From: Brachypterus glaber
Taxonomy: Eukaryota > Arthropoda > Insecta > Coleoptera > Kateretidae
Assembly (NCBI GenBank): GCA_958510825.1
Contig: OY294044.1
Location: 46,774,626-46,838,625 of the forward strand
Direction of reading: 5' to 3'
Length of the DNA stretch: 64,000 nucleotides
The notes below the pieces were generated by a model. It was not told the origin of the DNA and did not search any database. It worked only from the letters and a program-made list of their open reading frames with translations. The number at the start of each line of letters is the position of its first letter. Within the stretch, counting starts at the first letter, position 1. The position numbers and the translations under genes are program-made. This document shows positions 4,725-51,400 of the stretch, one piece after another.

Positions 4725-5102
4725 GTAAAGTTTTTATTTATTTATTTTTTCAATCAATAAACGAACTAATTTACAGAAAGCAAAAGAAAAGAAGCCTGTC
4801 AAGCTGCTAGTGATTTAACACAATCTTTAGTGGATCACTTAAATGTTGGTGTGGCACAAGCATATCTAAATCAAAAAAAATTGGATGCCGAAGCTAAACA
4901 ATTACATGCAAGTGCAACAAATTTTTCAAAACAGACTCAGCAGTGGGTAAATCTTGTTGAAAACTTTAGCAGTGCCTTAAAAGAAATAGGAGACATTGAA
5001 AATTGGGCTAAAACTATAGAAGGAGATGTTCGTACAATTACTACAGCTCTTGAGATTGTTTATAAAAACTCACAAGATTCATCACAAAGTAGCTTAAATT
5101 AA
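4664..5102 (+). CDS. BLOC1S1: BLOC-1 subunit 1 (BLOC1S1/Blos1/GCN5L1)
   Basis: Complete gene of two exons, 4664-4724 and 4777-5102, with a 52-bp GT-AG intron; 128 residues, close to the usual family length of about 125-150. The protein starts MLSQMVKEHQTKQVLKKEIQ and continues with the hallmark stretches VDHLNVGVAQAYLNQKKLD, KQTQQWVNLVENF, ALKEIGDIENWAKTIE and TALEIVYK. It is a small coiled-coil subunit shared by the BLOC-1 and BORC complexes, acting in lysosome-related organelle biogenesis and lysosome positioning. The start is supported by the conserved MLS-KEHQ opening. A poly(A) signal lies about 75 bp after the stop. Confidence 0.96.
4777..5102 (+). CDS. BLOC1S1: BLOC1S1 exon 2
   Basis: Begins after TTTACAG at 4776; the G from exon 1 completes a Glu codon (ESKRKEACQAASDL). 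It carries the whole coiled-coil body and ends in TAA at 5100-5102. Confidence 0.95.
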
Positions 5103-15000: not shown

Positions 15001-18000
15001 CCACCAATTAAATGCACTGAGCTGTATACAGCTTGTATAGTGTTTTAAGTTAACAAGTCACATACAGGGCCGGACAGAGCCAGCCCGGGCCCCGGGGAAA
15101 CTTTTTATTCGGGCCCAATTTTTCCAAAAAAAGTAGTCACGCGCAGGCCCCTAACTATAGCTATACAAGTGCTTTAGAAGGCACTTGTACAGTGGGGGGC
15201 TGAAGTGGCGCCCCCATTTATTAACTAAGTTAGCGCCGTGTGCGAAGTTTTTTTCGAATTATGTTAATATCTGACTCTTTTTAATATTTTATTTTAAACT
15301 TAACCTTGGTTTTACAATTTAAAAAAATAAATAAAAAAGCCTTAGCGCCGCGGGCGAAAATTTTTACAACTTTGATAGTCCATTTTAATTTTAACACGTG
15401 TTAACAGTGTTTTAAATTTCATAAAAATGAAAGCTCCAGCGCCACAGGCAATTTTTTTTACAAATGTTGGCGCCGTAGGCAATATTTTTTTTTAATTTTA
15501 CGCCCAAGTTTTACAAGCTCAAATTAAATAAAGTGTAAAAAAGCCCTAGCGCTACAAATTTGATACCTAGTCTATTCTAATTTTATAACAGTGTACTATT
15601 CTAAAATTAGAATAGACTAGGTATCAAATCTGTAACACTGCAGTATTACAATTTTAAGTTTCATATTAATGCAAGTGCAATACAATATAAAGTTTTACAA
15701 AAATACAAGAAGGCTTAAACGCCGTCGGCGAAAATTTTGACAATGTTTACGTTTAAGTTTTACAATCTTAAATTAAAGAAATAAAAAAAATAGCGCCGCA
15801 GGCGAAAATGTTTACGAATTTGACGGAAAAGTATCTGCATATTTGCTCGTTTTGATGCCTTTATCATTCTGGGGGAGTATAAATAAATATACTGTTTATT
15901 TTAAACTTAACGAAACTTCCGACGCCGGCCCCGAGGAATCGTCCCCCCCTACCCCCCCCCCCCAGAATCCGGCCCTGGTCACATAGTGTGCGATCATATT
16001 ATGATTTTGTGTGCCGTTATGCACAGTATTACTAGTAATAGCAAAAAAACTTGTTAAACCTTTAAATATTTTAGAGTTTAAAAAGTTTCAAATATATTTT
16101 ATTGAAAAAACAACAAGCTGTGAAGATATTTAATGCTACACATTCCATTATACATTATACTATTTACAGTGGATGGTATATTTAATTTTCCCAAATAACG
16201 CAAGTTAAAACTATTTAAATCGCAAATTAAAATATTGCCGCCCTGTAGGCGGCCTGCAGTAGGCCTAGGTTAATTAAAACAAAAATCAAATCAATTAAAA
16301 ATAATAATTAAAATGTCATAATTACAAATAATATTTTTCCTCTTAAAATCCAAATTTAAGTAACTCAAATTAACAAATTATCCAAAAAATGGTATGGCCT
16401 CCGTAAAAGAGCATAGCAGGGCCGTAACCAGAAAAAATCTAGGGGCCCCCAGAGTGGCACCTTAAATAACATTGGCGGCCCCTAAAATTACCGTCAAGAA
16501 AAAAAACTTTGTCCCTAACGGTTTTAACCAAATCTTGGCGCCCCTGCAAAAAAAATTGGCGCCTCAAAAATTACCTTCAAGAAAAAAGCTTTATCCCCGA
16601 CCGTTTTACCAAACTTGGCACCTCTGCAAAAAAAATTGGTGCCCCATTACCTTCAAGAAGAAAAGCTTTGTCCCTGACGGTTTCTACAAAACTTGGCACC
16701 CTTCAAAAAAAAAATTGGCGCTCAAAAAATTACCTTTAAGAACAAAAGCTTTGTCCTTCACGGTTTGGACTTTTTCTACCAAACTTGGGACGCCCCTGCA
16801 AAAAAAGTAAAAAAAAAAATTGCGCCCAAGTGTAGGTGACTTAAGAAATACCAGGGGGCTCAGCAAAAACGCCAGGGGGCTCAAACCAAGGCCAGGGGGG
16901 CTTACAAGAAGACCAGAAAACTTAAAGACATTCTACCAAATTTAATGTGTAGATTCCCTATAGGTACTGTTATAATTTCTATAGGTTGTTATCAAAATTA
17001 ATGCCGAGCCCCTAGCACAAGCTTAAGCTTATTTGGACTTTTTTTAAATTTTTTCCCGTAGACTGACCCAGGGGTGGATCTAGAATCGAGCTATGGGAGG
17101 GGTAAACGGAATAATGATTTTGAGTTGGTTTTTGAAATTCTTGTACTTGAAGTTTTGAAGTTTTTTTCGAATTATGTTAATATCTGACTCTTTTTAATAT
17201 TTTATTTTAAACTTAACCTTGGTTTTACAATTTAAAAAAATAAATAAAAAAGCCTTAGCGCCGCGGGCGAAAATTTTTACAACTTTGATAGTCCATTTTA
17301 ATTTTAACACGTGTTAACAGTGTTTTAAATTTCATAAAAATGAAAGCTCCAGCGCCACAGGCAATTTTTTTTACAAATGTTGGCGCCGTAGGCAATATTT
17401 TTTTTTAATTTTACGCCCAAGTTTTACAAGCTCAAATTAAATAAAGTGTAAAAAAGCCCTAGCGCTACAAATTTGATACCTAGTCTATTCTAATTTTATA
17501 ACAGTGTACTATTCTAAAATTAGAATAGACTAGGTATCAAATCTGTAACACTGCAGTATTACAATTTTAAGTTTCATATTAATGCAAGTGCAATACAATA
17601 TAAAGTTTTACAAAAATACAAGAAGGCTTAAACGCCGTCGGCGAAAATTTTGACAATGTTTACGTTTAAGTTTTACAATCTTAAATTAAAGAAATAAAAA
17701 AAATAGCGCCGCAGGCGAAAATGTTTACGAATTTGACGGAAAAGTATCTGCATATTTGCTCGTTTTGATGCCTTTATCATTCTGGGGGAGTATAAATAAA
17801 TATACTGTTTATTTTAAACTTAACGAAACTTCCGACGCCGGCCCCGAGGAATCGTCCCCCCCTACCCCCCCCCCCAGAATCCGGCCCTGGTCACATAGTG
17901 TGCGATCATATTATGATTTTGTGTGCCGTTATGCACAGTATTACTAGTAATAGCAAAAAAACTTGTTAAACCTTTAAATATTTTAGAGTTTAAAAAGTTT

Positions 18001-21000
18001 CAAATATATTTTATTGAAAAAACAACAAGCTGTGAAGATATTTAATGCTACACATTCCATTATACATTATACTATTTACAGTGGATGGTATATTTAATTT
18101 TCCCAAATAACGCAAGTTAAAACTATTTAAATCGCAAATTAAAATATTGCCGCCCTGTAGGCGGCCTGCAGTAGGCCTAGGTTAATTAAAACAAAAATCA
18201 AATCAATTAAAAATAATAATTAAAATGTCATAATTACAAATAATATTTTTCCTCTTAAAATCCAAATTTAAGTAACTCAAATTAACAAATTATCCAAAAA
18301 ATGGTATGGCCTCCGTAAAAGAGCATAGCAGGGCCGTAACCAGAAAAAATCTAGGGGCCCCCAGAGTGGCACCTTAAATAACATTGGCGGCCCCTAAAAT
18401 TACCGTCAAGAAAAAAAACTTTGTCCCTAACGGTTTTAACCAAATCTTGGCGCCCCTGCAAAAAAAATTGGCGCCTCAAAAATTACCTTCAAGAAAAAAG
18501 CTTTATCCCCGACCGTTTTACCAAACTTGGCACCTCTGCAAAAAAAATTGGTGCCCCATTACCTTCAAGAAGAAAAGCTTTGTCCCTGACGGTTTCTACA
18601 AAACTTGGCACCCTTCAAAAAAAAAATTGGCGCTCAAAAAATTACCTTTAAGAACAAAAGCTTTGTCCTTCACGGTTTGGACTTTTTCTACCAAACTTGG
18701 GACGCCCCTGCAAAAAAAGTAAAAAAAAAAATTGCGCCCAAGTGTAGGTGACTTAAGAAATACCAGGGGGCTCAGCAAAAACGCCAGGGGGCTCAAACCA
18801 AGGCCAGGGGGGCTTACAAGAAGACCAGAAAACTTAAAGACATTCTACCAAATTTAATGTGTAGATTCCCTATAGGTACTGTTATAATTTCTATAGGTTG
18901 TTATCAAAATTAATGCCGAGCCCCTAGCACAAGCTTAAGCTTATTTGGACTTTTTTTAAATTTTTTCCCGTAGACTGACCCAGGGGTGGATCTAGAATCG
19001 AGCTATGGGAGGGGTAAACGGAATAATGATTTTGAGTTGGTTTTTGAAATTCTTGTACTTCACACTACTTCGTCCCTTAAAATTATGGCCATGAGGGTAA
19101 TTACTCTCATTACCCCCGTAAATTCGCTAATGGACTGACATTTTTTTTTCACGGATATCATCTTTTTTGCCGAAAAACGTTTAAAACAAATAATTTCATT
19201 TATTCAATACATACAGATAATAAGACAATTACCAGCTTTATTTTAAATAGATAAACTCAATAATAACCCCCGCGTGGCTTTAGTTTATTGAGTGGATAAT
19301 TATTTATTTTACCCACTCAACTGTCACTTGTCAAATTATTTTCTTGTAAATGTCATTAAAATTTTTAATAAAAATATGAATTCCTAAGCCATTTATTGGA
19401 TAAAACCTTGAATGGCACTCATGGGTAAACCGATATTGCCCTCTCGAAAATTAACCTGCTTGGCTGACGACCCGCAGGTTAATTTTCTCATGGGCAATAT
19501 CTTACTTTACCCACTAGTACCATAAATAACTATTTTTTTTTTCAAATCAAAACAAACAAAAGTTATTTGAGTTTTTTTTTAGGTTGTCCGTGGTGGTGAT
19601 GGAATGGCCGGTTTCGCGGTGCGTCATCCTTCAGGGCAAATCGTTCATCCCTACCAATGGAAACCGAACAGCGAGTACCAGGACCAGAGTTCGACGGGTG
19701 GATACTACTCCGTTTGCATAGACAACCAATTCTCGAGGTTTGCCGGCAAACTGGTTAACATCTACCTAACTGTCGTAAGATACGATATGTGGGAACAATA
19801 CACCAAAGAAGTTGATGAATTGAATATGAATATGGAAAATTTCACGGTAAGAGAACCTTACTGAAATAGGCGAGTAAAAACATGCAAATTCCATAAATTG
19901 CGAAAATTTTAGTTGATTCTACTCGTTTTACTTATATTTGTCGGTCTTCTGCATTAAGAAAAGCCTGCCAGGGCTCCCACCAGTAGAAACATTTAGAGCA
20001 ACCAAGCGAAAATATGTACCTGGAAAACCTATATCTTGGGTTTTTTATTAAAAAGTTAGGAAATGTATAGTTTTTTTTTTAATTTCGTATACCCTCAAAA
20101 GAAATACCATACTCGTTGTAAGACTATATATTATATTCTTTTTTGTCAAGGTTGATCAGAGGAAGAGCTGATCAAGTTTTCAGTAGTGTGCAGAATTTCA
20201 ATGTACTTACATTGAATGCTTGTTTTAGGGGTTTGCCAACATTAATAATAAACATAAATAATCAAGTTTAGAGTATTTGGGCATACTGGGTGTCCCAACT
20301 CTATTTACCCAGCGATTTTCTCGAAAACTAAAAGAGATAATCAAGTTCTGCAAAAACCACCTTAAATGGGACAACAATATCTATAAAAATTAGTCGAAAA
20401 TGAAATCCACCCCTTAACCCCTCCCCCTCAATTTACCCCTAACTTTATTTTTTCAAATAGCACCGCTATATTTTTTTTGGTTGTATTGGATAGATTAGAA
20501 TAGAATAGAATTTATTGGTGCTGGTGTGCAGAAATAGTGCACTTACACAAGTCAAAAATATAAATTAAAACATTACTATACATACAGGGTGATCCATAAC
20601 TGGCATGCCAAAATTTAAGAGGTGATTCTAGATCCAAAAATATAAAAAAAGTTCCTATAAAGGTTGGTCCGGAAATGAGCCCTAAGGGATCTAGGGCCCT
20701 TTAAAATTGTAATAAAAATAAGGTTTTTAATTAATAACTTGGGTACCGTTTAAGCTAGAGCGGCGAGCTTTTGCATCTATACTAGTATTAATAAGGGCAA
20801 TAAGTTTATGTTAATTTATTTTTTTAATTTATCCAGAGGCATGCCCAGACGGACAAAATATATGAGGCTTAAAACATTTTTGCCCCAAACTTTTCTATGT
20901 GTATGTTTTTTGGATTTGTTGTAAAAAATATAGATTTCTAGAGTAAAAATACATATAAAATATCATATAGTGTAACACTGTAGGAGCAACCGTTATCAAA

Positions 21001-30254: not shown

Positions 30255-30409
30255 TTATTTTGCTTTCAAATAATTTTCTGAAAAAGTTAATAACCTATGT
30301 CTCTGCTTCAGATGTCTCGCTTTAACGTGTGTATTTGCAATTTCTTCCGTGTAATTCCCTGGGAACCAACCTGTTTTACCATCTTTTACTCTTTCACCAT
30401 GGTACCACC
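30255..30409 (-). CDS. Exn: Exn exon m (end of SH3, C-terminus)
   Basis: Reads GWYHGERVKDGKTGWFPGNY, TEEIANTHVKARHLKQRHRL, LTFSENYLKAK, stop. The WFPGNY motif closes the SH3 fold. A poly(A) signal follows 24 bp after the stop. Confidence 0.93.
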
Positions 30410-33400
30410 CTAAAATACAAAATAAATATATTCAACTTTTTACAAACAAAAATTTTTAACCAAGAAAAAGTCCAAACGAAAATGTGCCTAAGTTTTGAGA
30501 TTTTTATTATTTATGTTGTTATCAGTTTGCATCAAAGAAATGTTACACAAAGAAGTAATTTCAGACCAATGTTTACAAACATGTTATCTGTTTATTTTTT
30601 TTATAAAACCCTGTAAAAATGATCCTGCCTAATCTTATCAAAATCCTATGGAATTGATCACATTAAATTGGCATTGATACTTTGCGTAGGATTTGATGGG
30701 ACCGAGAATGGTATTTTCGTAAGATTTTAAAGGAATAGTAATTTCTGTTTCAAAGTGACGAAAACGCTACCAAAGTTTATCAAAAACCATAAAAACCTAT
30801 CAAGTTGATGGAATATTTCCTACTTTAGTGATGGGATTTTCTTAAGATTTCATAGGACCGTTTACGTAAAATTTGATGGGACTTTTTTTAATCGGAATGT
30901 ACACGATATTGTCGCTAGTTTTGACTTTCTGATAACTTTGTAGCGATGTTGCGTAATTTCCACCTTATCATTAATTCAAATTATTAAAATTGAATTAAAA
31001 ATTTAAAAAGCATTTTTTATACTAGGGTAAATGTATTAGAATTGTTTAATAATATAATATTTTTGAATATAATATAATATAATATATTATTACTAAATTA
31101 AACTAGTAGTTCATATAAAACAATGTAACTTGTATTGTATTGTATTGCTTTACTTCTAGTGGAAAGTATATTTTTAACAGTATATTTAAAAAAAAATGTT
31201 GCATACCATCAGTCATTTTTCGGAGCACGTTAATAACATCTCCTTTAATTACTGGCAGTTCATCAGGCTGTTTTGCAATATAATTATGAACTGCTATCAC
31301 TTGAGGACAATCCCAACATTCATACAGTTTTTCATCAGGATTTTCCGACTGAGGGGGAGTAAAAGCTTCAATCCACCTTTCTTTATCACTTACACTACTA
31401 CATGAGAGCATCTGAAACAAAAATGGGACAATTATATACACTAGTTTACAGGGCTTTTTACGCAAGTTGTTTTTAACGGTTTCTTATATATTTTTTTATG
31501 CTAATTCCAAATCCGACAAAAAAATTGCTTAACATTTTTAGATATTCGACCACAAAATTATAAAAACTGACAAATTTTGAAATAATATAGCAAAATTTGT
31601 AAGTTCATCCATATATTTACAGCAAAGAACAGTACTTGTCCTAGATTAGTACTTTTCTTGCCCCAGATTAATACTGACTGCCGCATTTGAGAAGTTATTG
31701 AAAATCATAGATACCGATCTTTTACAAAAGATCTAGGATAGATTCAAAATCAAAACTAGTCTTCGATTTATTTATTTATTTATTTATTTATTAACCCCAC
31801 TACAAAAATTAAATGTACATGAGATAACATGATAATAGAAACCTAATATAATGTAAAAAAAATAATTGTAACAAAAAAAAAATAGAACAAATAACCTTGC
31901 AAATAACAAAAAACTATACAATACTAAAATTAAAAAATTTAAACATTAAGAAGAAATTTAAACATTAATGAAATTAATGCTTTTTAAAGAGGTTTTAAAC
32001 GATCTCAAAGTAGAAAAGGTAAAGTCATAATTATCCAAACTATTGGCTAAAGTCATGACTCTATCCATGGGAAAATTACAACCGTAATTTGTACGGTGAT
32101 ATGGGATTTTAAAAAGCGGAGAAAAGTTGCGCATGACCCTAGCCGGAACATTTAAATGTATTTGACTTAGTAAGTCTGGGCAATCAATAAGCCCATTAAA
32201 TATTTTAAAAAGGTAACATAAATCTGACGTTTTTTCCTACTTTCCATTAAATCTACATCTAAAAATTAATAAATGTGGGAGTAGTTATGATCAGGAATAG
32301 GAGTGTTTAATTTAAAAGCACAAAACCTAAGCATTTTTCTTTTCATACTTTCCAACCCATCAATATGATTATTATATTGAGGCATATTCTAGATTGGATC
32401 TAACTAACTATAAAACAAATCAATGAAAATCAAGAAAAAGACAAAGATAAAGCTTAGAATTGCCGACGTCAGATATCGGTGGTGTTTGATATGCTTCGGA
32501 CGAAAAACGTTATCGGTTTCAGAAAATAAAGATTCATTTTCATTTTTTACCGGAAAATTGTTCGGTTTTGTAAGATCGATTATGAAAAAGATCCCAAGTA
32601 AAAAAATTGATTTAAAAAATCAAATAATTTTATTAAAATAATCGATCTTCAAAAGAATCAATTAAAAATTGGCATCCCTGTGAAATATATGTGTTTATTG
32701 TTGTATGTATGTATGAGTATGTAATACAACGTGTTATTTGCAATGTTTCTTATTATTAACTATCACGTAAATTAAACTAAAATAACTTTCCTGTAATTCA
32801 TTCTTCAATTTTTTTTTGACAAACTGCTCTTCTTATGTATCAGTTTAGTCAAACACTACAACTTAGTAATGCATGCAAACACTGTATAATCAATATTTAC
32901 GGAAATAATAGTATATTATTCAATACTTGCTATTAATCATTGAGGGTGAATTTTGGGAGACGAGCCGAAAGGCGAGTGACCTAATTACTCGAATGATTAA
33001 TAGCTATTATACGCGAGTAGAATTCTATACTTTATCCACGGTCGTTTTAAATTTTAAACGGTTTATTTTTACAGACCCGTGATTAATAGACCTATTAATC
33101 ACGGCCGTGATTTTTGTGTCTATCTCAAAAAGACATTTTTGGACTAGTACTGTTCTTCAACTGACTAATTCATTTTTTGTTATAAAATACTTTGTGAGAG
33201 AATATTTGGATTTAACATGAATAAATATGTAGGAAAACGTTGAAAGAAGCGTGCGTAAAAAAAAGGTTAAAATTGGTAGTTTTATCTTAGAGTAAGAAGA
33301 AGGACATATAGGCATTTAAGGCAAGTACCTATACTATTTAATAGTAATTAAACTTCATACATTATTATTTTTTTTTTACTTACAAATTCAATAGTTTTTT

Positions 33401-36400
33401 CATCTTGATTTGCTAAAATTGTCATGTATATAAGATGTTTTCCTTGGCCATCCTTGATTGGTAAAGACATTAGAACTTCACTGGTGTTTAATTCTACTAC
33501 GTTTCTTGGGCAGTAATGAACTACTGTATACAAATTATCACTGAAAAAAGAAATAGATATAATTTTTGTCAAAATTCAAGGAATTTTATAAAAATAATTG
33601 ATTGCAAAAAAGATGTTGACAATTCTACAATAGCTATTTTCCTAACAAGTGCGGAAAGAGGCCCGTTTCCGCACTCGATTGCATTTGCCTGAACGACGCC
33701 TAGCGGAGTTCAGGCAAGCAATCGAGTGCGGAAAAGCCTCTTTACGCATGCGTTAGGAACATTACTTTTCCTACGAGCAGGGTTAAAATAAAATATACTT
33801 TTATATTTTACCAAATAAATCAAAATAAATCTTATTTTTATAATTTTTCAATAAGAAAATCAATTAACAGGTAAAAAATTTACATTTTTATAATATTATG
33901 AATAAATATAACAAGAATAACACTACACAATTAAGAAATTAAACAATACTTATGCGTGCGGAAAAGGGTTTATTTCCTCACGCTCGTAGGAAAAATAATT
34001 ATTTCCTAAGAATTGTCATATAAATAAATAAATTATAAGTTTTACACCTAGATTTTTACCGAAAACAATTCCAGGTTTGAATAAGGAAATAAGGAATGTT
34101 CAAAATTAGAAATCTTTAGCTCAGCGGGTTCTCGATTCGCTAACGCTTTCAGAGTCATGAGTTATTGTGGTCAAGATTTTTTTGGACAAACAGACAGATA
34201 AAAGTTTTTTTTGACCGGAATCTTCTTTTTCGATATGAAATAACAAGAAAAGTAAAAAAAAGCAATATTTTTTTTTCTAACGCAATATCTTATAAGAGGA
34301 AATTCTTGAGACTAAGCTTAGTCTGAAGAATTTCCTCGGGGAAAGTAATAAATATAAGTACAGTGTAAACTCCGTTTCTCAAGGGACCGCGAAATTAGTT
34401 CGACTTAGAGAGATTTCGAGATGAAGAAAAAACATTCCGCAAAACTTTGGGGATTCCCTTAGCAAACACACAGTAAACGACGCGTACGGCGCACTGTGGG
34501 AATTTTCAAGGTTTTTTATTTAAAAATTCTAGAAGAAGGTCAATTTTGAATCAATCTTCCTAATTTTTTTTTAAACAACTTGTTAAGTCTTGTACTTTCA
34601 TAACCTACTGCTACAAATTTGATTTGAGGTATAACAAATGAGTGCTGAGAAGTTAAGTTGTCAGATTATAATTTTTTCATTTATTTCAAAAAAGAATATT
34701 TAGGGATTTTGTGGTTGCTAAAAAATTAAAATTTAAAATGGCGTACTCAATATGGCGTCGAAATCCTAAAATTTTCAATTATGTTTGCCGAAAATTAGTG
34801 ATTAAGTATATTTAAGGTCGTTGAAACCAAATCCGATGTTAAAAATTGAAGATTATAATGATTGATTTCGACGCCATATTGGATGCGCCGTTTTAAATAT
34901 TAATTTTTTAGAAACCTCAAAAATCCTAAATATTCGTCTCTGAAATAAATGACAAACTTAACCTCTCAGCACTCAATTGTTATGCCTCAAATCAAATTTG
35001 TAGCAGTAGGTTATGAAAGTAAAAGTCTTAACAACAAGTCTTAACAAGTTATTAAAAAAAAAATAGGAAGATCGATTCAAAATTGACCGTCTTCTGGAAT
35101 TTTGAAATAAAAAACCTTGAAAATTCCCACTGTGCGGCGTCTCGATTTTTTAAAGTGCATAATACTGTGACGAAAAATTTAATTTGATACTGCCCAAAAA
35201 TTTGAGTTATGGAGTGTGGACTGTGTTACTGTGGTTTCGAGATTTTCGAGTTATAGAACATTTGAGTTAGAGAGGTGGAAATACATTGTTACAATGGAAA
35301 ATGTGCGGGTGACTGGTTTCGAATTATGGAGAGTAGAACTTCGAGAGGTAAAAATACATTATTACAATAAAAAATATGCGGGCAGCATTAGTAAACTTCG
35401 ATTTATGGAACATTTCGAGCTATGGAGGTTCGAGTTATGGAGTTTCCACTGTATATGAAAAAAATCAAAAAAGATTTTAATAATTTTACAAAAAATCTAT
35501 TGTGCGACAAGCTACTGCAAAAAATAATAGGTTTTATAAAAAACAATTTTATTTGAAAACTTTGGGTAGGGACCTAGGTCCAAAATCAAAGGTTCTAGCT
35601 CAAAGCGTTATTCAGTTGTTGTCACAAATTTTCCGGAGAGAGAGAGAGAGAGATTTTTTTGAGGTAATCAGACTAAACCTACTGTTTTACTCCCGCATCT
35701 GTATAACACAGAACACCCAGAACACGATAGCTGTACACTTTTTTTTTATTTGGATGACAATAAATTTAAAATAGCCTCTGTTGCCTGTTTCTCAACAACC
35801 ATTATTTCATTAAAATCCATAAGGACAGAAATTTTTAATTTTAAACAAAATTATAAAAATATTAATTTATTATTCCATCAATCTATTTTCTAATCATCGT
35901 ACAGAGTGATATTGGTAGACTGACAGTTTCGGGCTGCTGGCCCATTTCAGTACCAAGAGTCATCTCTGCACGCTGATTAAGAAAACAGTTCCAGTCCTTA
36001 CTCGCAAAAGAAGTAATGTCATCAGATTGATGTATACAGGTGCGCCATCTATTGCTAGATGTAGACAACTACTCAAACCTCTCCTAGTCTGGAGACTGAA
36101 TGGTAGCAAGTTGAAAACTTGTGTGTCTCAAGCACATAGTACCACTAACCTGGGGTCAGATGTAGAATTTATAAGGACAGAAATTTTTAATTTTAAACAA
36201 AATTATAAAAATATTAATTTATTATTCCATCAGAGTTGACTCTTGGTACTGAAGAGGGCCAGCAGCCCGAAACTGTCAGTCTACCAATATCACTCTGTAC
36301 GATGATTAGAAAATAGATTGATGGAATAATAAATTAATATTTTTATAATTTTGTTTAAAATTAAAAATTTCTGTCCTAACTAATTTTACGTCTAACCACC

Positions 36401-39400
36401 CGTTAGTGGTACTATGTGCTTGAGACACACAAGTCTTCAACTTGCTACCATTCAAAGTCTCCAGATAAGGAGAGGTATGAGTAGTTGTCTACATCTAGAA
36501 ATAGATGGCGCACAAGTCTACATCAATCTAATGGCTATATTCCTTTTGCGAGTAAAGTCTAAAAACGTTTTCTTAATCAGCGTGCAGAGTTGACTCTTGG
36601 TACTGAAGAGGGCCAGCAGCCCGAAACTGTCAGTCTACCAATATCACTCTGTACGATGATTAGAAAATAGATTGATGGAATAATAAATTAATATTTTTAT
36701 AATTTTGTTTAAAATTAAAAATTTCTGTCCTTACTAATTTTACGTCTAACCACCCGTTAGTGGTACTATGTGCTTGAGACACACAAGTCTTCAACTTGCT
36801 ACCATTCAAAGTCTCCAGATAAGGAGAGGTATGAGTAGTTGTCTACATCTAGAAATAGATGGCGCACAAGTCTACATCAATCTAATGGCTATATTCCTTT
36901 TTCGAGTAAAGTCTAAAAACGTTTTCTTAATCAGCGTGCAGAGTTGACTCTTGGTACTGAAGAGGGCCAGCAGCCCGAAACTGTCAGTCTACCAATATCA
37001 CTCTGTACGATGATTAGAAAATAGATTGATGGAATAATAAATTAAAATCCATATTCTTTATTACTTTTTCTTGAGCTGTCATTTCGCGATTCGTGCATAT
37101 CTTGATTTAATTTTAAAAGAAATTTCAAATTACATGTTTTAATTTAAATTGAATGTTGCTCAATTTGTTTTATTGCATACCTATTTAATTTTTTTAACGT
37201 GAGTTCTCATACACCCTGTAGTTGTTAGTCGTGCAAAAATTAGTGTATATATCTCAAGAGAAATCTGTGTTTTAGAGCGTAGCATGAATACTTCATGCTG
37301 CAGGACTAAAACAACCATTTGGTTTGGTCTTTTGACGCTTGATGTATAAATAACTACTTACCGTTTTAATTTCGTTATAAACAACATATCGTTGAACAGA
37401 AACAGATGAAGAGGAACCTTCAGGAATTTCTTTCCAAAGGTCAGTTTGGTTTCGTCCGTTCGCGTTTGCATTTGAGTGACCATCCCGGATCTGACCAACC
37501 AGCGACTCCCGGACTCCAATTCGATGGGTTTCGTGCCTTTGGGAAATTCTAATTGACGGGAAATTTTTATCAGTTCGTTTTCCCGCTCTTTTGTTCTTGC
37601 GGCTTCGTTGCATTGATGGACAATCTTAAAAAAAATACAAAAACATAATTAATGGACAACCTAAGATAAATACAAAAAGCACAGTGTTCAGAAAAATTCT
37701 AAAAATATTTATTTTATATAATATAATTCCTTAAATTTTCTTTTTATAAAGATATTAAATAAATTTCTAGAAAAATATGAGGTAGCCCAATCATTTTAGA
37801 TTTTTTCATGACAAAAAATTACAAAGTAAGACTTTTGACGCAGTTAACCCTGGTAGAAAAGTACACAAATCTAACTTAACATAACATTAGATTAGTGATG
37901 TTTAGTCTCAAACGTTATACAAAAACGTTATGAAATATATAAATCTAACCTTAAAAACTAACGTTTGACAAAAACGTTATAAAATACATAAATCTAACGT
38001 TAGTTTCCCAATTAAATTCTAACGTTTTTCTAACCTTATTCTAACTTTAAATATCTTTTAAATTTCCATTTACATTCCAATCTATAGTAGAAAATAGTCA
38101 TTTTAGACAGCTATGTGCCTAGGTTTGATAATTATTTATTATTTCTATAATAAGTTTAAAAAAAAACCCCAAAAGTCAAAATTATAGTAAGTCTGGCAAT
38201 GGTGTATTAGAATTGAATAAATATTTTAAGATTCTGAATGTATAAATAAATATTAACTAACTAAATATAAAGTTTTTCTGACAGGTAAACGTATTTATCG
38301 AAGTATAAGAGCATATTACACGAAAAATATTTAGAGCCACATAAAAAGATGGCCATTTTATAAATATGTAACGAAATTCTGTTTAAATATATTATGATTC
38401 CTATAATATATTAGGATTTATTTATATGAATAAATTTGTCTCTAGCTGCCATTTTATGATGCAGGTAGAAATTTCCTAGTTGGCCACGCCCCCTCCGAAA
38501 GTTAGAAATTAAACGTACTTATAACGTATTTCTAACTTAAAAATCTAATGTTAGATTAACGTTTGTAACTAACGTTAGATTCTAACGTTAAAAAGTGATA
38601 CATTTGTACATATTTTATAACGTACTTTTATACAGTTATTACAGTATAAAACGTTATTCTAACGTTAAATTTCTACCAGGGAAGTGTCCCCCGCGGAGTA
38701 GATGAAGAAATCACATCTTGCCCATAAATTTGATATGGGGACTGTCCGCCATCTTGGACTTTTGTGTTTTTGTCAATTTGCAAGTGTATTTTGCATTTCA
38801 TGATAAAAAAGGTAACAAATTTGTAGAGAATTTAATTCTCTATATAAAGATAGTAATCTTTATATAGTCAATATTGTTAAAAAAAAAAATATTGCTTGTT
38901 AGGGTTCACAGAAAATAATGTTTATATTTTTAATTTAAATCTTTAGCGGCATTTTTTATCGCTTCGTTCGATATCATTTTTTGTATACTTTTTTATACCT
39001 GCGAATACGTATCGAAATAAATTAGTTACTGTTCAATATTAACACTTCGTTTCTAATACCTACATCAAATTATTTCTTAATCAAATTATTAATTATAATA
39101 AAATATATTGGTAGCTTAGTGCTAAACTAACAGTGGCGATGAGAATGGGATCCGAACCCACGCGGGCAAAGTTGATTAGTGCAAGGAACTGAAAACAAAC
39201 AAACTGTAGACAAATGACCTTTGTATCTAATGGATAATTGCAAACGTAACTATATTTCATTCCTGGTTTTCCCTGGAAAAATCTCACAAGGGCGTAACAA
39301 AATTTTGTTGTTGAAATTTTGGCAGGCCTACCCTGGGGCCCCTTAAAATTTACATTTATCGTTACTCTTTCATAATCAACGAAAACAAATGCTAACTGAT

Positions 39401-42400
39401 ATGAAAACAAGCCTTAAAGATATGTAATGATACGCATTCTATTATATATTTTTTACATTAAATGGTATATTTCCTTGTATATTGCATTTTCCCAAATATT
39501 AAAAAAAAATATATTTTCAAAAAAAGATCTTTTTTGAAAAACGAAATTAAAAAAAAAACAAGTTTTTTTTTAAATCTATTTTTTTATTTTTTATTTTCTT
39601 TTTGCAAAAAGTTTAACTTCCCATAACTTTTTCGTTTTTGGAGGGATTACTTTCAAAATTGGTAGAATTGATCCTTATAATAAAAGTAATTTTTCCTAAA
39701 AAAGTTAAGTTAATCGGAATTTTCTTTCAGATTTTTTTGATGTTTTTAAAAGTTTAACCCCCCATATTTTTTTGTTTTTGGGGGTATTACTTTTAAAAAC
39801 AATAACTCATAGAACTTGAGTTTTCCTGAAACTTTCGTGTCACCGGACAGACGGATGGACGGTTATTTCTATTTGTATCCAAGATTTTTTTGTCTAGTTT
39901 ATTTTTGGCGATTTTGGGAAATTCGAAACTACCGTATAATACTATCCTATCGCTACGCGCTGCGAATAGTATAATAACAAAATAACCAAAATCTTAAAAC
40001 TTTTTCACGAGAAAGTAAGTGGGGTCCCGTACCATTTTCAGTTTATTTTATTTACCTTACTGAGAGTTTCAAGCGCGCACTGACAATTTAAATATTCGCT
40101 ATCTTGTTCATGCAGCCTCTTCAAAACTGCATCCACCAAGAGAGGCCATCTGGTTATTCGTTGCATTGGTAACATCAAAAAGGAATACAGTGTTAAAGAT
40201 TGGCATGTTATACTACCTTCTAACGTTTTTAGTATATCTACAAAACCAGGTTTCTCCCTAAAAAGAAATAAAAATTACTATTAAAATACACGGTATTTGA
40301 AATAGGGTCCGAAATTTTATGTGGTGATCATAAAATATGAAAAAAAGTTCCTATAAACATATGTATAAATTTGCGTCGCAAGTAGCTCCCTTACGAAAAA
40401 GCCCCTTTGAAAGTGGCTAAAAATTCGGTTTTTATTTAATAACTCACGAACCCTCTGAGATATAACAACGAGGTTTTGCATGTGAACGAATCTTAATAAG
40501 GTCTATCTTTGTATATTATTTTCATGTACTTATTTTAACCAGGGGTGTGCGAAACGGGACGGGCCCTTATCAGTTTTTCGTCCCAAACTTTTTTCTTAGT
40601 AACTTTTTTGTAGTTTTATTTTGGGAATATGATTCCTCAGATCAAAATACATAAAACAGGTATTGTTGTAATACTGTAGGATTAACCGTTTTCGAGAAAA
40701 ATTAATTTGAAGGGGAAATTTCACGGTTCGAGGACGAAAAATTAAATACTAAAATGTTGAAAATTTAAATTTAAATGATACAGCGTGAATGTACATCAAA
40801 AACTAAAAAGAAAACCTCATATACCGGTACTTCCAAAAACCAATCCTAAGAGAGCTATGGTCTCCTAAAATGCACTATTTTTAAAAGGCCATAGTAGCAG
40901 TTCTTGCATGTAGTTACTTAAACGAGGGGCGTCGGAAATGAGGGGTCTTATCACTTTTTTGCCCCAATTTTTTTTTCTGCTTAACACGTTCGCTGCCTAT
41001 GAGGCATACGTGGCGGCAAAATTACACGTTAAATCGTGCAGTCGGTTCCTGCGCGGAGATTACAAATTACCACCGTAATGCCGCGGCAACGAAAGTGTTG
41101 TGAAACTTATTTGTGGGTTTATTTTTAAAATAGTGTATCTCAGGTAAAATTACATAAAAAAGGTACTCTTGTAATACCGTAGGATTAACTGTTTTCGGGA
41201 AGAAAACAATTAAAGGCAAAATTACACGTTTCTAGAACCAAAAAGTAAACACTAAAATGTTAGAAATCAAAATTGCAATAACGCAGGGTGATTCTACATT
41301 AGAAGCAAAGAATAAATGTTTCTATAAATGTAGATCCAAAAATCGCTTTTAAAGATACCGATACCCCCAAGCAACAAAGTCGTAACTCATATATTATCAT
41401 TTTTCACGACAGCTAAATTTCTAAAATATTTATTTTCTTATTTAAGGGTGGGGAAATGATTGAAGTGGAAAAGGAAGCCATGTGATACATCATTTAAAAG
41501 CTTATAACATTCTCTATTTAACTCTATAAGTATTTATTTTTTATTTATTGTTTGTTTCTGATAATATTCAAAATTATAACTTATTACTTTAGTGTTTTTA
41601 GGTAAACTTTTGGTTAAAATGGCCTGTGGAGAAATCTGAGTAGTACCACTATGTGTGTCTTTTTTTAAGGCGTTTACCTATGGGTATAACTCAAAATAGG
41701 TCTAACTTGAGTTACATCCTTGTTGCATGGGAGTGTCGATACCATTAGCATCGATTTTTGGTAGAAATATATAGAAACTTTTTTTTGTAACCCTACACCA
41801 TGAAATTTTGGTTTTTAGTGTAAAATTTTTGGTTTTTGAAAAAAACGTGTAATTTTGCCTTTAATTGCATTTTTCTCGAAAACGGTTAATCCTAAGGTAT
41901 TACAACAAGATTAACTGTTTTATGTGTTTTAACTGAGAAATACTATTTTGATGAAAAACTCACAAAAAAGTTAAGCAAAAAGAAGTTTGTGGCAAAAAGT
42001 GACAAAACCCCCTATTTCGGACGACCCTGGTTAAAGTAACTACATGCAAATACCATTAGATGATAGGCCTTATTAAGGATAGATCACAGGCAAAACCTTG
42101 TTGGGTTCCTGAGATTAAATATAAATCGAATTTTTGGAAACCTTTTTGAAGGGGCGTAGCTTCTTTACGAGTTGTTTTTGGACATATGTTTATAGAAACT
42201 TTTTTCTTATTTTGAACTTTAGAACACATCCTTTAAATATTTCCCTTTCCTCCCGAAACACCCTGTATTTAAAAAATATGAATATTTATTTAGTGAAATA
42301 TTTGGTATAAAATGTTTAAAAGATTTATACTAGTTGTAAAAAAATTAATAAAATTTAAATACTATTTTTGTACTTACTTGAGCCTTTTAAGGGTGTCATC

Positions 42401-45400
42401 AATAAGAATCTGGTTTTCACAATAGGAAATATAAACGGAAAAATTCTCATCTGCGTGTTTTTGCACAATGTCGCATATTCCGGTCAGTAAAATATTATCT
42501 TGCCAGCATTTTTCAAGATCTTGTAACAACTTTTCGGAACAATGTCGAACTAAAAATAAAATTATTGATTTTTTTTAAGAAATTGAATTTTTAATAACAA
42601 ATAAAAGAGGTTTTATTCCAGGTGTTACTGCTTTCACATATAAAATATTCAAAAATGTGTATATAAATTACTAGCCGCGAAGTTGCCGCTGATTGTTCTT
42701 AATACACAAAATTTACGAATGGTTTGGGAAATTAGCATAAAAAATTAATATAGTTTTAATGGGTGCAACACCCTTTTTTTTCTCATAAAAGCATCCCTGG
42801 ACGAGTTACCGCCCTTTTCTCCAAAACCGTAGATCTGAAGAAAAAGTCCAAACAGTCACTGGACCAATGATATACCATAGAATTCCATAGTTATTGGCGC
42901 GGAAAGATAAGGGTACCCAAAAAATTCGCAAGATTTCGCGGGTTTTCGCAAGGATTTGCCAGATTTAGTAAGATTTCGTAAGTTTCGCAAGATTTTATAA
43001 GATTTCAGAAGATTTCGTAAGATTTCACAAGGTTTCGTAAGATTTCGCTTAATTATTTTTTTCTGTTGTTAACTGTTTTTCATTCTAATCTTACCGTACT
43101 AGAATGGAAAGACTTATTTTGCAGTATTTTACTTTCAAGGAAAGTTCTTCGTTAGTAAAAAAATATTTTATAGATTTTTTAAATTATTCTATTGCTTTTT
43201 TATGTTTCTATGTATGTAAAAAGCTAACTTCCGCGAAAAAATCTGTCTGTCAGTCTGTCCAGGAAAATTTGTGACCATTTGTAAGAACGCTTTGAGCTAA
43301 AGATTTCAAATTTGGACTACTGGTTCCTTATACAAAGTTCTCGGATGTGAAAGTTTCCGGTAAAAAACTTACTTTTTGTGACAGATCGCATCACAAAAAT
43401 TATTGTTGCGAAATTTTTAAATATTTTTCGTTTGGACTTTTGAGAACCACTCATGGGAGAAAGCAAAGGGAAAAGTATTTTTCTACGACTGCTTTAGAAT
43501 GTAAGCAAATACACACTCTTTTCAAACACAGAATGAATCCATTCTAGCTCTACATACGGTATGAATATTTCGTTTGGACTTTTTATATTCCATATCAAGT
43601 GTTAGAATGAGCACATGTAGTGTCATCTCTTGTTTATAAAAGTAAAGAAAACTGTAGCAAAATTAGCAAAAATATATATATTTTACCATGAAATATTGAA
43701 TAATTTAATGCAATTTAAAGATTTGCGTTAAAATTACATAAAGTTTATTAGTTTTTCTTAATATTTGACAAGTTTTTTATTAATTTAGTTAAAAAAATTA
43801 AAACTGCTCCATCTACTGTTAAATATTTAAACCTGATATCTGTCACAATAATCTAACATAACCTTCAATTTTTGCATTATAATTTGTAAATATCTGCTAA
43901 AATTAAATAAAAATCTTTTTTAAGTACTGATTTGATAAAATTATTAAATAACATTAATTGCTTTATTTAAAAATATGTGTTTTTTTTGCATTTACATTGT
44001 CGAGTTACAAAAAAACATTGTTTTTAACCTTGTCCGCAGTTTAAAGCCATACAGTGTTTCATATTTGCAGTCAAAGAAAAAGTATAGTCTACAACATGTA
44101 TGGAATAGTCATTCCGCGCTCGCGGGACCATCATACTCGCCTACCGGCTCGTATGACAAACTTTCCGCTTGCGCGGAATATTGTCTATTCCATACTAGTT
44201 ATAGAATATACTATTTTTTTTGTTAGCAGTATTTTGATTTGGAATATCTACTTAAAATGTTTTGATCAAAATATTTACCTGCTTGAACTTTTCCAAAAAG
44301 TATATTAATCTCTTCTGGAGAAATCAAGTTGCTATAACCTTGCAGTGATTTCGAAAAATGATTTATTAGCACGTTTAGAGAATTTAAATATGATGCTTCT
44401 GAGGTCAACATTTCGAATTTGGCCTCTTGAATTTTCTTTTGGTGTCCACTTAATGTACCTAGAAAAATAATCTGAGATAAAAACAATACAAAATAAAAAA
44501 AAATATGTTTTTTTCCTCACTAAGAATATAGTCTGAAACACGCTAAGAAAACTACAACAAAAGGGGGAAAAACACAGAACACTAACAAAAAACGCTGCGA
44601 TTTAAGCGAATTCAGTGTATAGTCGCTGCCAGAGTTATAAAAGATTTTTTTTTAACAGCGGTTATTTTTATCTGACGCGTGTCAAACTGTTTGTCCAATC
44701 GTTGCATAATTTTAGACTCATTTAAACTAATGTATTTTTATCGAGTCCACGTGGACTGATTCTAGTCAGTTAAAGTTCAACCCTATCCAATCATATTTCA
44801 CAAAAGATTTAGCCACATCCACAATAGTCTGGGCCGAAAAAAATCTTTTGATCACCGATTTTAACCAAAATTGGTTAAAACCTTTATTCTGGTCCCCTAA
44901 GTGTGTCATAAGCTCAATTAAATGATCAGAAACCCAATTTTGGGGGTCTAACCGCCAAGATTTTGCGTTAAAATATATATAAATATTATGTATGCGTTGT
45001 TAAATGAGACGACAGCTTAAGTTTGGACTTTGCCTCTTTAATCGCAATTTTCCCTAAACGGTTGACCCTACAGTGTTACATAAGGAGTACATTTTTTATG
45101 TATTTTTAATTAAAGATTAATATTTTATTTAGCTAATGTCAACAAATCTACTGATAAAAAAGTTTGGGGCAAAAGAGTGACATCGCCCCCCATTTCGCAC
45201 GTCCATGGTTAAAATTACCAAATAAAAATTACATAAAATGATAGCCTTTATTAATGTTAAGGCATGTGCAAAAACTCGTTACTGTGGTTTATAGGGTTCC
45301 AGAAATATTAAATAAATATAACTTTTTAGATGTACCCTTAGGAGGGTCGTAGCTCCCTTAGGGCTTATTTCCGCCCCATTTTGTACGTCCCTGGTAAAGA

Positions 45401-48400: not shown

Positions 48401-51400
48401 GGCCTGTGCAATTATTGTTTTAAATTTTTGAGTTAATAAGTCTTCAATATATAAAGTAATTATCTATTTTCTATTAATTTTTAAAATTAAATTTCAAAAA
48501 ATAGGGATCAGTTCATAATTTTACGCGTTGGACTTTTGTCAACTACAAAAAATCTAAAAATAAAATGCGTAGGAAAATGTACTTAAATATAAAAATACTT
48601 TCACATAACAATAATATTCAATTACTAAAATATTATAAGCTATAGAACATGGAACATAAATATAGGGGTTCATTCAGAATTTTAGAGTTTTTTTTAATTT
48701 TAAAAAGCCAAAATTTAACCTAATATATGAATACTCTGAATGAGATATTAATTTGATTAATATAAAATACATACATTTATAAGTAAACTAATCTGAAATA
48801 TATTTTTATTTATTTTTAATTATTTAAATATAAGAAGGAATTTTCTTGCCAGTATGAAATTTTAACTAGTTTTTCACACACCCTTTATTCCCGAACTTTA
48901 CACAGAAACCAGAGTATAGGTATAAATAAATCTGCCACATGCGCCGCGACGCGTCGTCAATGATTTCCGCGCTACCAACATTGTAAAAACTAAACTACCT
49001 AAAATATTTGAATGTAAAGGTTTTGTGACTGATATAAATTTTACTCACTCACAATAAAATCACTGCATAAAATTGAAACCTCACTTTTATAACTTTTGGA
49101 AGTCATAACAGCTTAATAAAGTAATATTATAACAAAATATCAACTAAAATACAATTTCAATGTAATTTTTTGATCTTTTTTATTCCAAAAATTAGAAATG
49201 TCAAACTTGAATTTATTGTTTCAAAATAAATTAAAATCAAATTAATTATTATTAATTATTTATATAAACTACTTTTAAAGATTTAAAGTGTTAAAAAAAT
49301 GTTTTAAAAAATAGTCCTGCAAATACACCTCCAGATTCGGTATATTACATATGAAAACTATTTCTTTCAGAAATTACTCATTTATCTTTTTATTTTTTAT
49401 GAAAAAATCCATTAATATAAATTAAGGAATGCTTTTAAATCTTTTAAAAATTGTTGTAAAGTTTAATAAGCTCTCTAGATGAAGAGTATTATAAAAGAAT
49501 ATTTTTTCTACGACTGCTTTAGAATGTAAGCAAATACACCCACTTTTCAAACACAGAATGAATCCATTCTAGCTCTAGATACGGTATGAATATTCCATAT
49601 CTAGTGTTAGAATAAGCACATGTAGTGCCATCTCTTTTTTATAAAAGTAAAGAAAACTGTAGCAAAATTAGCAAAAATATATATATATATTATACCATGA
49701 AATATTGAATAATTTAATGCAATTTAAAGTTTTGCGTTAAAATTACATAAAGTTTATTAGTTTTTCTAAAAAGGACAGTTTTTTATCAATTTAGTTCAAA
49801 AAATTAAAACTGCTCCATCTATTCTGTGTATCTATCCTACAATAAATAAATAAATAAATAAACAAATATTTAAACCTGATATGTCACAACAATCTGACAT
49901 AACCTTCAATTTTTGCATTATAATTTGTAAATATGTGCTAAAATTAAATAAAAATCTTTTTTAAGTACTGATTTGATAAAATTATTAAATAACTGCTTTA
50001 TTTAAAAATATGTGTTTTGTTGCATTTACAATGTCGAGTCACAAAAAACATTGTTTTTAACCTTGTCCGCAGTTTAAAGCCATACAGTGTTTCATATTTG
50101 CAGTCGAAGAAAAAGTATAGTCTACAACATGTATGGAATAGTCATTCCGCGCTCGCCTGCCGGCTCGTATGACAAACTTTCCGCTCGCGCGGAATATTGT
50201 CTATTCCATACTAGTTATAGAATATACTATTCCTTTATAGTTAATACAGACGTTATTTTTTAAATTGACATTTTTTTATCGATTTTTTGTCGCAAAAAAT
50301 AAAATAAATTAAAAAAAAAACCTTAATACATTTTCAAAAAAAATAACTTTCCTTGGGAAAAGTAAAATAAACACGTGGGATTTAATTAACTTTGGACTGG
50401 CAAAACAAGTTAAGCTGATATTTTCGGGAACAAAATTGGCATTTTCCAAAAAGAAGTTGGAATTTTCGGAAAAAAAAAAGTTTGCATTTTGGCTTAAACG
50501 TGGTTTTAAAAATGAATAGCGCCTTCAAATTAGACACGTGAATATTATGAAGTGAAGTTTGTTTTTAGGAATGAGTATTTACTTTGCGATTTTTTTGCCT
50601 TAGGAGCACCCATAAATTACTTTAGGCAAATTACCCAATACTAAAACCTATTGCGGCTAGGGCACGCAATCCCGGAACTATGAACTGAATGAAAAAAATA
50701 ATGAGCATAGATTTTAATGTTCTTATATCGGAAAAAAAATAATTTAAAAAATCAAACTTTAATTTTTATATATATTTTTTGCAAAAAACAGTGTGTGCCA
50801 TATGTGGTACACTATGCAGTAAGAAAACTTAGTAAGTATGTCGGTAGGTCTTTCTGTGCGGGAAATTTGTAACCACGATGACTCTAAAACGCTTTTTTTC
50901 TAAGCTGGGATTGTTTTTAGTTAAAATCGGGGTGGGGTAAGGAGGTAAAATGGGGTAAAAACAAGTTTTTTCAAAAACATATTTTTAAGTTTTTTTCCGT
51001 TTTTCGTAAAAAGAAACTTTTTTAAAAAAAAAAACAATTGTTATTTGCGCTTCTAGTAATTTTTCTATGGATCAAGCGGAGCTAAGGTCCATAAACACGA
51101 CCGAAGACAGAAAAAAACTTACCTACGAGTAGCGCATTACGTTTTTCTCACTACCAAGGAGTTAAAATTTTATTAATATTTTTAACATTTATATGTGTGA
51201 AATTTCAAAAAATCATTTTTTTTATGGAATCACTCTATAAAATTAAGAATAGTAGTCTTGTGTCTAGGTGTCCCCCTTAGGTAAGTGTCGGACACTTTAG
51301 CGGTAAAACGTTTTTTCTGTCTAGTTACGGTTTTGTTTGTATTGATTCTATTGATTTCATCTATCACTACTAAGTGTGCTTGATATAGTACTTTCCAATT

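Follow-up and report, generated by a model that had tools for sequence, protein, structure and literature searches.

We analysed a window of 64,000 nucleotides from the beetle Brachypterus glaber (Coleoptera; Kateretidae; GenBank assembly GCA_958510825.1, contig OY294044.1, positions 46,774,626 to 46,838,625 of the forward strand; all positions below are those of the window). It contains a hammerhead-bearing repeat element that lies within what looks like an intron of a RhoGEF gene on the minus strand. An original prediction, made from the sequence letters, had described tandem 354-bp repeats at 35821-37040, each with a complete type I hammerhead ribozyme, and had read them as a probable insect retrozyme. 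The periodicity was confirmed. Tandem Repeats Finder reported a direct array at 36231-37045 with a period of 354, 2.3 copies, and 99% matches, and the two full units differ at 2/354 positions (36378 and 36548 in unit-1 coordinates). The predicted interval held in part: its right portion is this direct array, whereas 35822-36230 is an inverted copy, approximately 91% identical to the forward unit, with the ribozyme core CUGAAAU. This ribozyme-dead inverted copy and a target-site duplication were absent from the original prediction. The features of the element are as follows.

35809-35821, no strand: left 13-bp target-site duplication ATTAAAATCCATA, whose final 3 nt (ATA) could equally belong to the element
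35822-36232, minus strand: inverted array of about 1.2 units with its RNA-sense 3' end at the left duplication (self-alignment)
35902-35968, minus strand: relic hammerhead in the inverted copy, with CUGAAAU in place of the core sequence CUGAAGA; the cut would fall between 35918 and 35917
36231-36232, no strand: head-to-head joint (5' end to 5' end), CA, 2 nt that fit both arrays (microhomology)
36231-37045, plus strand: forward array of the putative retrozyme, 2.3 units of 354 bp (tandem-repeat search and self-alignment)
36231-36297, plus strand: type I hammerhead 1, predicted cut after 36281
36282-36635, plus strand: full unit 1, cut site to cut site, predicted 354-nt monomer, 35.9% G+C
36585-36651, plus strand: type I hammerhead 2, predicted cut after 36635
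36636-36989, plus strand: full unit 2, cut site to cut site, predicted 354-nt monomer
36939-37005, plus strand: type I hammerhead 3, predicted cut after 36989
37041-37053, no strand: right 13-bp target-site duplication ATTAAAATCCATA, of which the first 5 nt (37041-37045) are common with the forward array

Three identical type I hammerhead motifs in the forward array

The three forward hammerheads are identical. Each reads UUGGUA, the core CUGAAGA, stem II GGGC/GCCC with the loop CAGCA, GAA, stem III ACU/AGU with the loop GUC, the cleavage nucleotide C, and UACCAA, so that stem III has 3 bp in every forward copy. In the active fold, the outer stem I comprises 8 bp with one bulged U and lies beyond a 3 × 3 internal loop. 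We used a strict descriptor consisting of CUGANGA, stem II, GAA, a stem III of at least 3 bp that opens with A and closes with U, a non-G cleavage nucleotide, and a stem I of at least 5 bp. It recovered exactly 3 sites on both strands of the window, all of them forward-array hammerheads. The stems described in the original prediction were thereby reproduced letter for letter in 3/3 copies, and the same three cut sites were predicted. The inverted-copy relic was not recovered, and 200 dinucleotide shuffles (25.6 Mb, both strands) yielded 0 sites. A loose core pattern is not distinctive: it gave 33 overlapping matches in the window; 100 shuffles averaged 10.4, and 3 of them reached 33.

The original prediction had also proposed a covariance-model check, and by the refutation test that it set itself the outcome counts against it, but Rfam misses similar hammerheads, as described below. 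Rfam gave no hammerhead, indeed no family, at the gathering score in the whole window, and no hammerhead in a 2-kb scan at E ≤ 5. The best match, from an 86-nt scan, was RAGATH-1-hammerhead at 13.4 bits (E 3.5) against a cut-off of 56.3, with the core correctly aligned. The RAGATH-1-hammerhead family is linked to Penelope-like elements.

A pattern combining the core with stem-loop II matched 19 IMG/VR viral contigs (L001-L019), with one match per contig stretch. Read by eye, all 19 motifs follow a stem-I hairpin and are type III-like. Six viral-contig loci, five of the 19 and L020, were submitted to Rfam, and 0/6 queried motifs were found at gathering. The sole hit, in L010, lies away from the queried motif, and the L001 motif tested singly scored 24.6 bits against a cut-off of 48.5. 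Rfam is therefore insensitive to hammerheads of similar make. The viral motifs and the beetle motifs have the same core and stem-loop II (GGSC CAGCA GSCC, required by the search pattern), but in the viral contigs stem I is closed by a hairpin, stem III is open (by eye), and the motifs are not tandem. Several of the viral type III hammerheads (among L001-L019) sit shortly upstream of an ATG. The exact core pattern had 0 matches in prokaryote genome contigs.

A diverged inverted copy within a 13-bp target-site duplication

The full unit of the inverted copy is 352 nt long and differs from the forward unit in 34/354 alignment columns (9.6%), versus 0.6% between the two full forward units. The third, partial forward copy (107 nt) is identical to the corresponding part of unit 2. 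With the inverted copy as comparison, both changes between units 1 and 2 are private to one unit, as expected of copies from one template that were later mutated or miscopied. The changed positions of the relic core are what we take to be G8 and A9 in standard hammerhead numbering. In the hammerhead of PAc, a Penelope-like element of Anolis, the G8C mutation abolishes cleavage (PMC11167929).

The two arrays lie between perfect 13-bp copies of ATTAAAATCCATA, the sole exact match of at least 9 nt between 35700-35840 and 37000-37140. A 13-nt match so well placed was found in 23/300000 pairs of random positions, drawn without masking of tandem repeats, and in a second random-pair test 0/2000 pairs reached 12 nt. 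The inner joint lacks such a duplication: matches on each side reach 5 nt at best, a length that 800/2000 random pairs equalled or exceeded. Beyond the arrays, no direct repeat of at least 20 nt was found in 35500-37500, save a 24-nt AT-rich match at 37106. In both arrays the RNA-sense 3' ends face outward and abut the duplication. The RNA 3' end lies at +51 to +56 after the ribozyme cut in the forward array and at +96 to +99 in the inverted array, the ranges being the 5 nt and 3 nt, respectively, common with the target, and the two ends are 40-48 nt apart in the unit. On inspection of the sequence, neither RNA 3' end carries poly(A) or a simple repeat added to the unit.

The arrays also form a long inverted repeat (35811-36097 and 36456-36742) with 287-nt arms that are 91% complementary. 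RNA transcribed across it could fold into a long hairpin that might be a source of small RNA. The repeat may account for sub-threshold matches to microRNA precursors: the Rfam matches to MIR8007 and MIR1435 lie far below gathering, span the inverted repeat, and were taken as an effect of the palindrome.

The differences between the two lineages are unevenly distributed along the unit. A module at offset -26 to +98 round the cut is identical in unit 2 and the inverted copy.

36256-36379, plus strand: module common to both lineages, from the start of stem II to the reverse transcription start of the inverted array

Unit 1 carries a single private change inside the module, at 36378. All 34/34 differing columns versus unit 2, and 33/34 versus unit 1, fall outside it, and the remainder of the unit is approximately 15% different between the lineages. 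When 34 differences were placed at random 100000 times, the longest clean runs, 122 nt for unit 1 and 124 nt for unit 2, were matched 0 times and once, respectively. Given two lineages to compare, constraint, recombination, or homogenisation may alike explain this identity. Gene conversion between the palindrome arms was judged an unlikely cause, because two tracts ending at the same unit position would be needed and a unit-1 source would carry the change at 36378. The boundary at +98 coincides with the reverse transcription start of the inverted array at +96-99.

By anatomy the element resembles metazoan retrozymes

Metazoan retrozymes without long terminal repeats (LTRs) have 150-450-bp repeats, type I hammerheads, a G+C content below 50%, and, when present, duplications longer than 4 bp (PMC7229834). 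Compared with those of Acropora, Mytilus, and axolotl (Cervera & de la Peña 2020, PMC7229834), the locus has a tandem 354-bp unit within this range, a type I hammerhead in 3/3 forward copies (not in the inverted one), 35.9% G+C, a 13-bp duplication, no recognisable protein, and a self-paired predicted circle. The longest stop-to-stop frame spans 65 aa in the forward array, and the inverted copy has one of 106 aa; for the latter, no database protein shared three 5-residue words at the sensitivity of that search. No frame longer than 106 aa overlaps 35821-37040, hence there is no open reading frame (ORF) with reverse transcriptase and GIY-YIG domains. By its anatomy, the element would be a metazoan non-LTR retrozyme. 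The original reading as a probable insect retrozyme is thus favoured by unit length, ribozyme type, low G+C, lack of a protein, the duplication, and a beetle-like host gene, and disfavoured by the sub-cut-off Rfam score and a monomer that is predicted to be blocked.

The host here is a beetle, while PMC7229834 names insects, in the parts used, without species. Those parts do not describe a head-to-head insertion whose two arms have diverged, and the word 'inverted' is absent from the main text. An open-licence literature search gave no beetle retrozyme paper among the matches listed. For the retrozyme class as such, the locus would add one host, and its value lies mainly in the insertion anatomy. 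According to a 2020 review, metazoan retrozymes carry no conserved motif that reveals the mobilising retrotransposon (PMC7761336, chapter 7). The young-looking insertion, with its clean duplication, two mapped RNA 3' ends, and conserved module, offers concrete places to look for the mobiliser.

Other hammerhead-bearing elements were also compared. Plant LTR retrozymes are likewise non-autonomous, non-coding, and hammerhead-bearing, but have type III hammerheads in their LTRs, circles of 600-800 nt, and 4-bp duplications, instead of the type I motif and 13 bp found here (PMC7229834, PMC7761336). Penelope-like elements differ from the locus in that it has no ORF for reverse transcriptase and GIY-YIG domains and possesses stem III, which Penelope-like hammerheads lack (PMC7761336). 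The pDo500 satellite of Dolichopoda cave crickets consists of ~500-bp repeats that make up ~5% of one genome, and its transcripts self-cleave (PMC2837043). As an insect tandem repeat with a hammerhead it is similar to the element, compared by description alone.

A proposed insertion by reverse transcription from both DNA ends

The insertion anatomy, the duplication, the joint, and the divergence pattern are direct observations. Starting from them, we consider that a metazoan-type (non-LTR) retrozyme probably inserted here once, and recently, by target-primed reverse transcription that extended both DNA ends. Tandem copies would be transcribed, their hammerheads would cut the RNA into 354-nt monomers, and a host ligase may close these into circles. 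A retrotransposon reverse transcriptase would then copy the RNA directly at a staggered chromosomal break, with both broken 3' ends priming on retrozyme RNA. From the bottom-strand end, synthesis would start ~51-56 nt after the cut and proceed for ~2.3 rounds of the 354-nt template. The top-strand end would use another retrozyme RNA of slightly different sequence, with synthesis starting ~96-99 nt after the cut and covering ~1.2 rounds. Joining of the two cDNA ends via the 2-nt microhomology would leave a head-to-head element between 13-bp duplications. RNA 3' ends that face outward at the duplication are the geometry expected of both-strand extension with the cDNAs joined centrally. Because the arrays do not end at the ribozyme cut, copying would not have begun at the end of a cut, linear monomer; a circular template or an uncut multimer is consistent with these ends. 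The scars at the element ends thus suggest how such elements get copied into a genome.

For the enzyme, a Penelope-like element is tentatively our most likely candidate, otherwise a long interspersed element (LINE). Penelope-like elements were put forward as strong candidate mobilisers of metazoan retrozymes in the Discussion of PMC7229834. PAc cuts both strands of AT-rich DNA, mostly at ATT, and extends both (PMC11167929). Its hammerhead cuts at position +26 of the ORF, and reverse transcription starts mainly at +111 to +118, i.e., 85-92 nt after the cut, with a second internal start nearby and a 30-40-bp 'tail' between the two (PMC11167929). At the beetle locus, the hammerhead similarly lies upstream of internal starts at a similar distance (+51-56 and +96-99), and the duplication begins with ATT. 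This parallel was noticed after the fact and at one locus, and is a lead, not class membership.

Several results weigh against the proposed insertion. Divergence of 34/354 columns between the arms makes simple twin priming on one RNA insufficient and calls for two templates, that is, different RNAs, or two events. The element is known from one locus, with no further copy in the 64-kb window at E ≤ 1e-3, and Pfam recognised no reverse transcriptase among the 14/25 window frames of at least 100 aa that were examined. The starts here have 5 and 3 nt in common with the target and are AT-rich, whereas PAc starts without homology to the cut DNA and in an AC-rich stem-loop (PMC11167929). PAc ribozyme mutants showed no effect on insertion in vitro (PMC11167929), so the hammerhead need not matter for the insertion step. 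The predicted folds, whose energies were computed without loop-loop contacts, are unfavourable as well. The minimum free energy structure of the isolated motif is not the active fold; in it, ACUGA from the core is paired to UCAGU from stem III, and the active fold lies 6.3 kcal/mol higher. Compared with shuffles, an 80-nt stretch has a modest folding advantage (z -2.06, 7/200 as good). The dead inverted copy folds better still relative to shuffles (z -3.67, 1/200 as good), so that fold energy is uninformative on activity. The single ribozyme, as a monomer, is predicted to be mostly self-blocked.

The same blockage is predicted for the whole circle. At 37 °C, four of the five blocking pairs in the 354-nt circle have probabilities of 0.96-0.999 and the fifth 0.63, and the stem III pairs have probabilities of ~2.5e-5 to 3e-5. 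Holding the core free costs 5.9 kcal/mol, versus 0-3.5 in 11 viral-contig hammerheads (the distinct ones among the 19, with duplicates dropped and L020 left out), which belong to another hammerhead type, type III. The circle as such is stable (-93.3 kcal/mol, z -4.7 versus 100 mononucleotide shuffles). Given the blocked fold, efficient cleavage cannot be assumed, and since loop-loop contacts are left out of the energies, slow rather than absent cleavage is a fair prediction. Most metazoan retrozyme circles leave the ribozyme free, according to the Discussion of PMC7229834, while the circle predicted here blocks its own. Self-blocking would be a candidate built-in reason why circles stay un-recut, a point that this Discussion leaves open.

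A double-hammerhead mechanism was also considered. The isolated 67-nt motif gave -45.1 kcal/mol as an active dimer, compared with -32.6 as two active monomers, -45.2 as two blocked monomers, and -49.3 in the best dimer fold, which is not active. For a 480-nt tandem stretch, the energies were -127.5 kcal/mol for the double form, -135.3 for two single active forms, and -148.5 without constraint. The dimer looks favourable in the isolated motif but not in the tandem stretch, and the mechanism is hence not claimed.

Mobilisation by a LINE instead of a Penelope-like element, with classical twin priming of an RNA recruited in trans, is a less probable but serious alternative. L1 is known to undergo twin priming with a 3'-overhang stagger, which yields the same geometry. 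A LINE is disfavoured by the lack of added poly(A) or simple repeats at the RNA 3' ends and by the sequence difference between the arms, and both-strand extension from internal starts is a property of PAc (PMC11167929).

A more elaborate form of the Penelope-like proposal is possible but doubtful. The stretch from stem II to ~+98 would resemble the recognition and reverse transcription start region of a Penelope-like element, and a dimeric enzyme bound to two different retrozyme RNAs would extend both DNA ends at once, giving insertions that are head-to-head and flanked by duplications. Competition of a 5-bp with a 3-bp pairing for UCAGU would keep the circle from cutting itself.

Two successive insertions, an older inverted copy followed by a younger forward array exactly at its edge, appear unlikely. 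They would account for the 9.6% divergence between inverted and forward sequence versus 0.6% within the forward array, and for a dead core confined to the inverted copy. But the 13-bp duplication frames the pair, and on neither side of the inner joint do more than 5 nt match. A second insertion must then have hit the exact junction of element and duplication and left no duplication of its own.

Less likely again is hammerhead satellite DNA spreading by unequal exchange or circular DNA, with the inverted copy arising by later rearrangement. The unit is tandem, and hammerheads are known in the insect satellite pDo500 (PMC2837043). Against this, there are 2.3 units, the sole copies in the 64-kb window, they are intronic, and the 13-bp duplication frames the whole structure.

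A decayed Penelope-like fragment (pseudo-LTR), as opposed to an independent retrozyme, is very improbable. The best Rfam match, although below the cut-off, is to the RAGATH-1 family with its Penelope-like link, and the hammerhead lies upstream of the reverse transcription starts, as in PAc (PMC11167929). The 354-nt unit closes on itself, however, the forward array has no frame above 65 aa, the 106-aa frame of the inverted copy had no relative at the sensitivity of that search, and stem III, lacking in Penelope-like hammerheads, is present (PMC7761336). A chance motif or an assembly artefact is hardly credible: the Rfam result is negative at gathering, the loose core is not distinctive, and an inverted repeat can be an assembly fault, but strict matches number 0 in 25.6 Mb of shuffled sequence and the inverted copy is diverged and no mirror of the forward array.

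Host gene and other features of the window

The reading frames around the element point to the following exons of the putative host gene.

30258-44516, minus strand: RhoGEF-like exon frames (DH, SH3, ARHGEF16-like), from reading frames by eye, Pfam, and PDB
33351-33575, minus strand: putative next RhoGEF exon on the other side of the element, by eye, ends approximate
37361-37648, minus strand: host RhoGEF exon beside the element, ends approximate (right end alternatively at 37627), PH region according to the ARHGEF16 match

The exon at 37361-37648 matched Rho guanine nucleotide exchange factor 16 (ARHGEF16) in PDB (E 1.5e-9). In the exons joined by eye, Pfam found RhoGEF and SH3 domains, both outside 33351-33575, and called no PH domain. 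The gene-sense strand carries only the dead ribozyme, and the three intact hammerheads are antisense, so the host pre-mRNA would stay uncut. A single copy gives no basis for inferring selection.

Elsewhere in the window, the best named matches of a BLOC1S1-like frame (4770-5102) come from beetles, namely Diorhabda at 91% and Gonioctena and Rhamnusium at 87% (best 120 of 669 hits). The frame at 7886-8437 resembles a transposase N-terminus (DUF4817 helix-turn-helix, with a Tc3-type match below the cut-off); the overlapping frame 8415-8834 seems by eye to continue it and had no Pfam match. A direct duplication of ~1.9 kb with 99.95% identity (15244-17148 and 17157-19060) is either a very recent tandem duplication or an assembly duplicate. 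A dispersed repeat of ~0.75 kb occurs at 43478-44225 and 49503-50243 with 85% identity, and its first copy adjoins the frame 44226-44516, which was taken as a RhoGEF exon.

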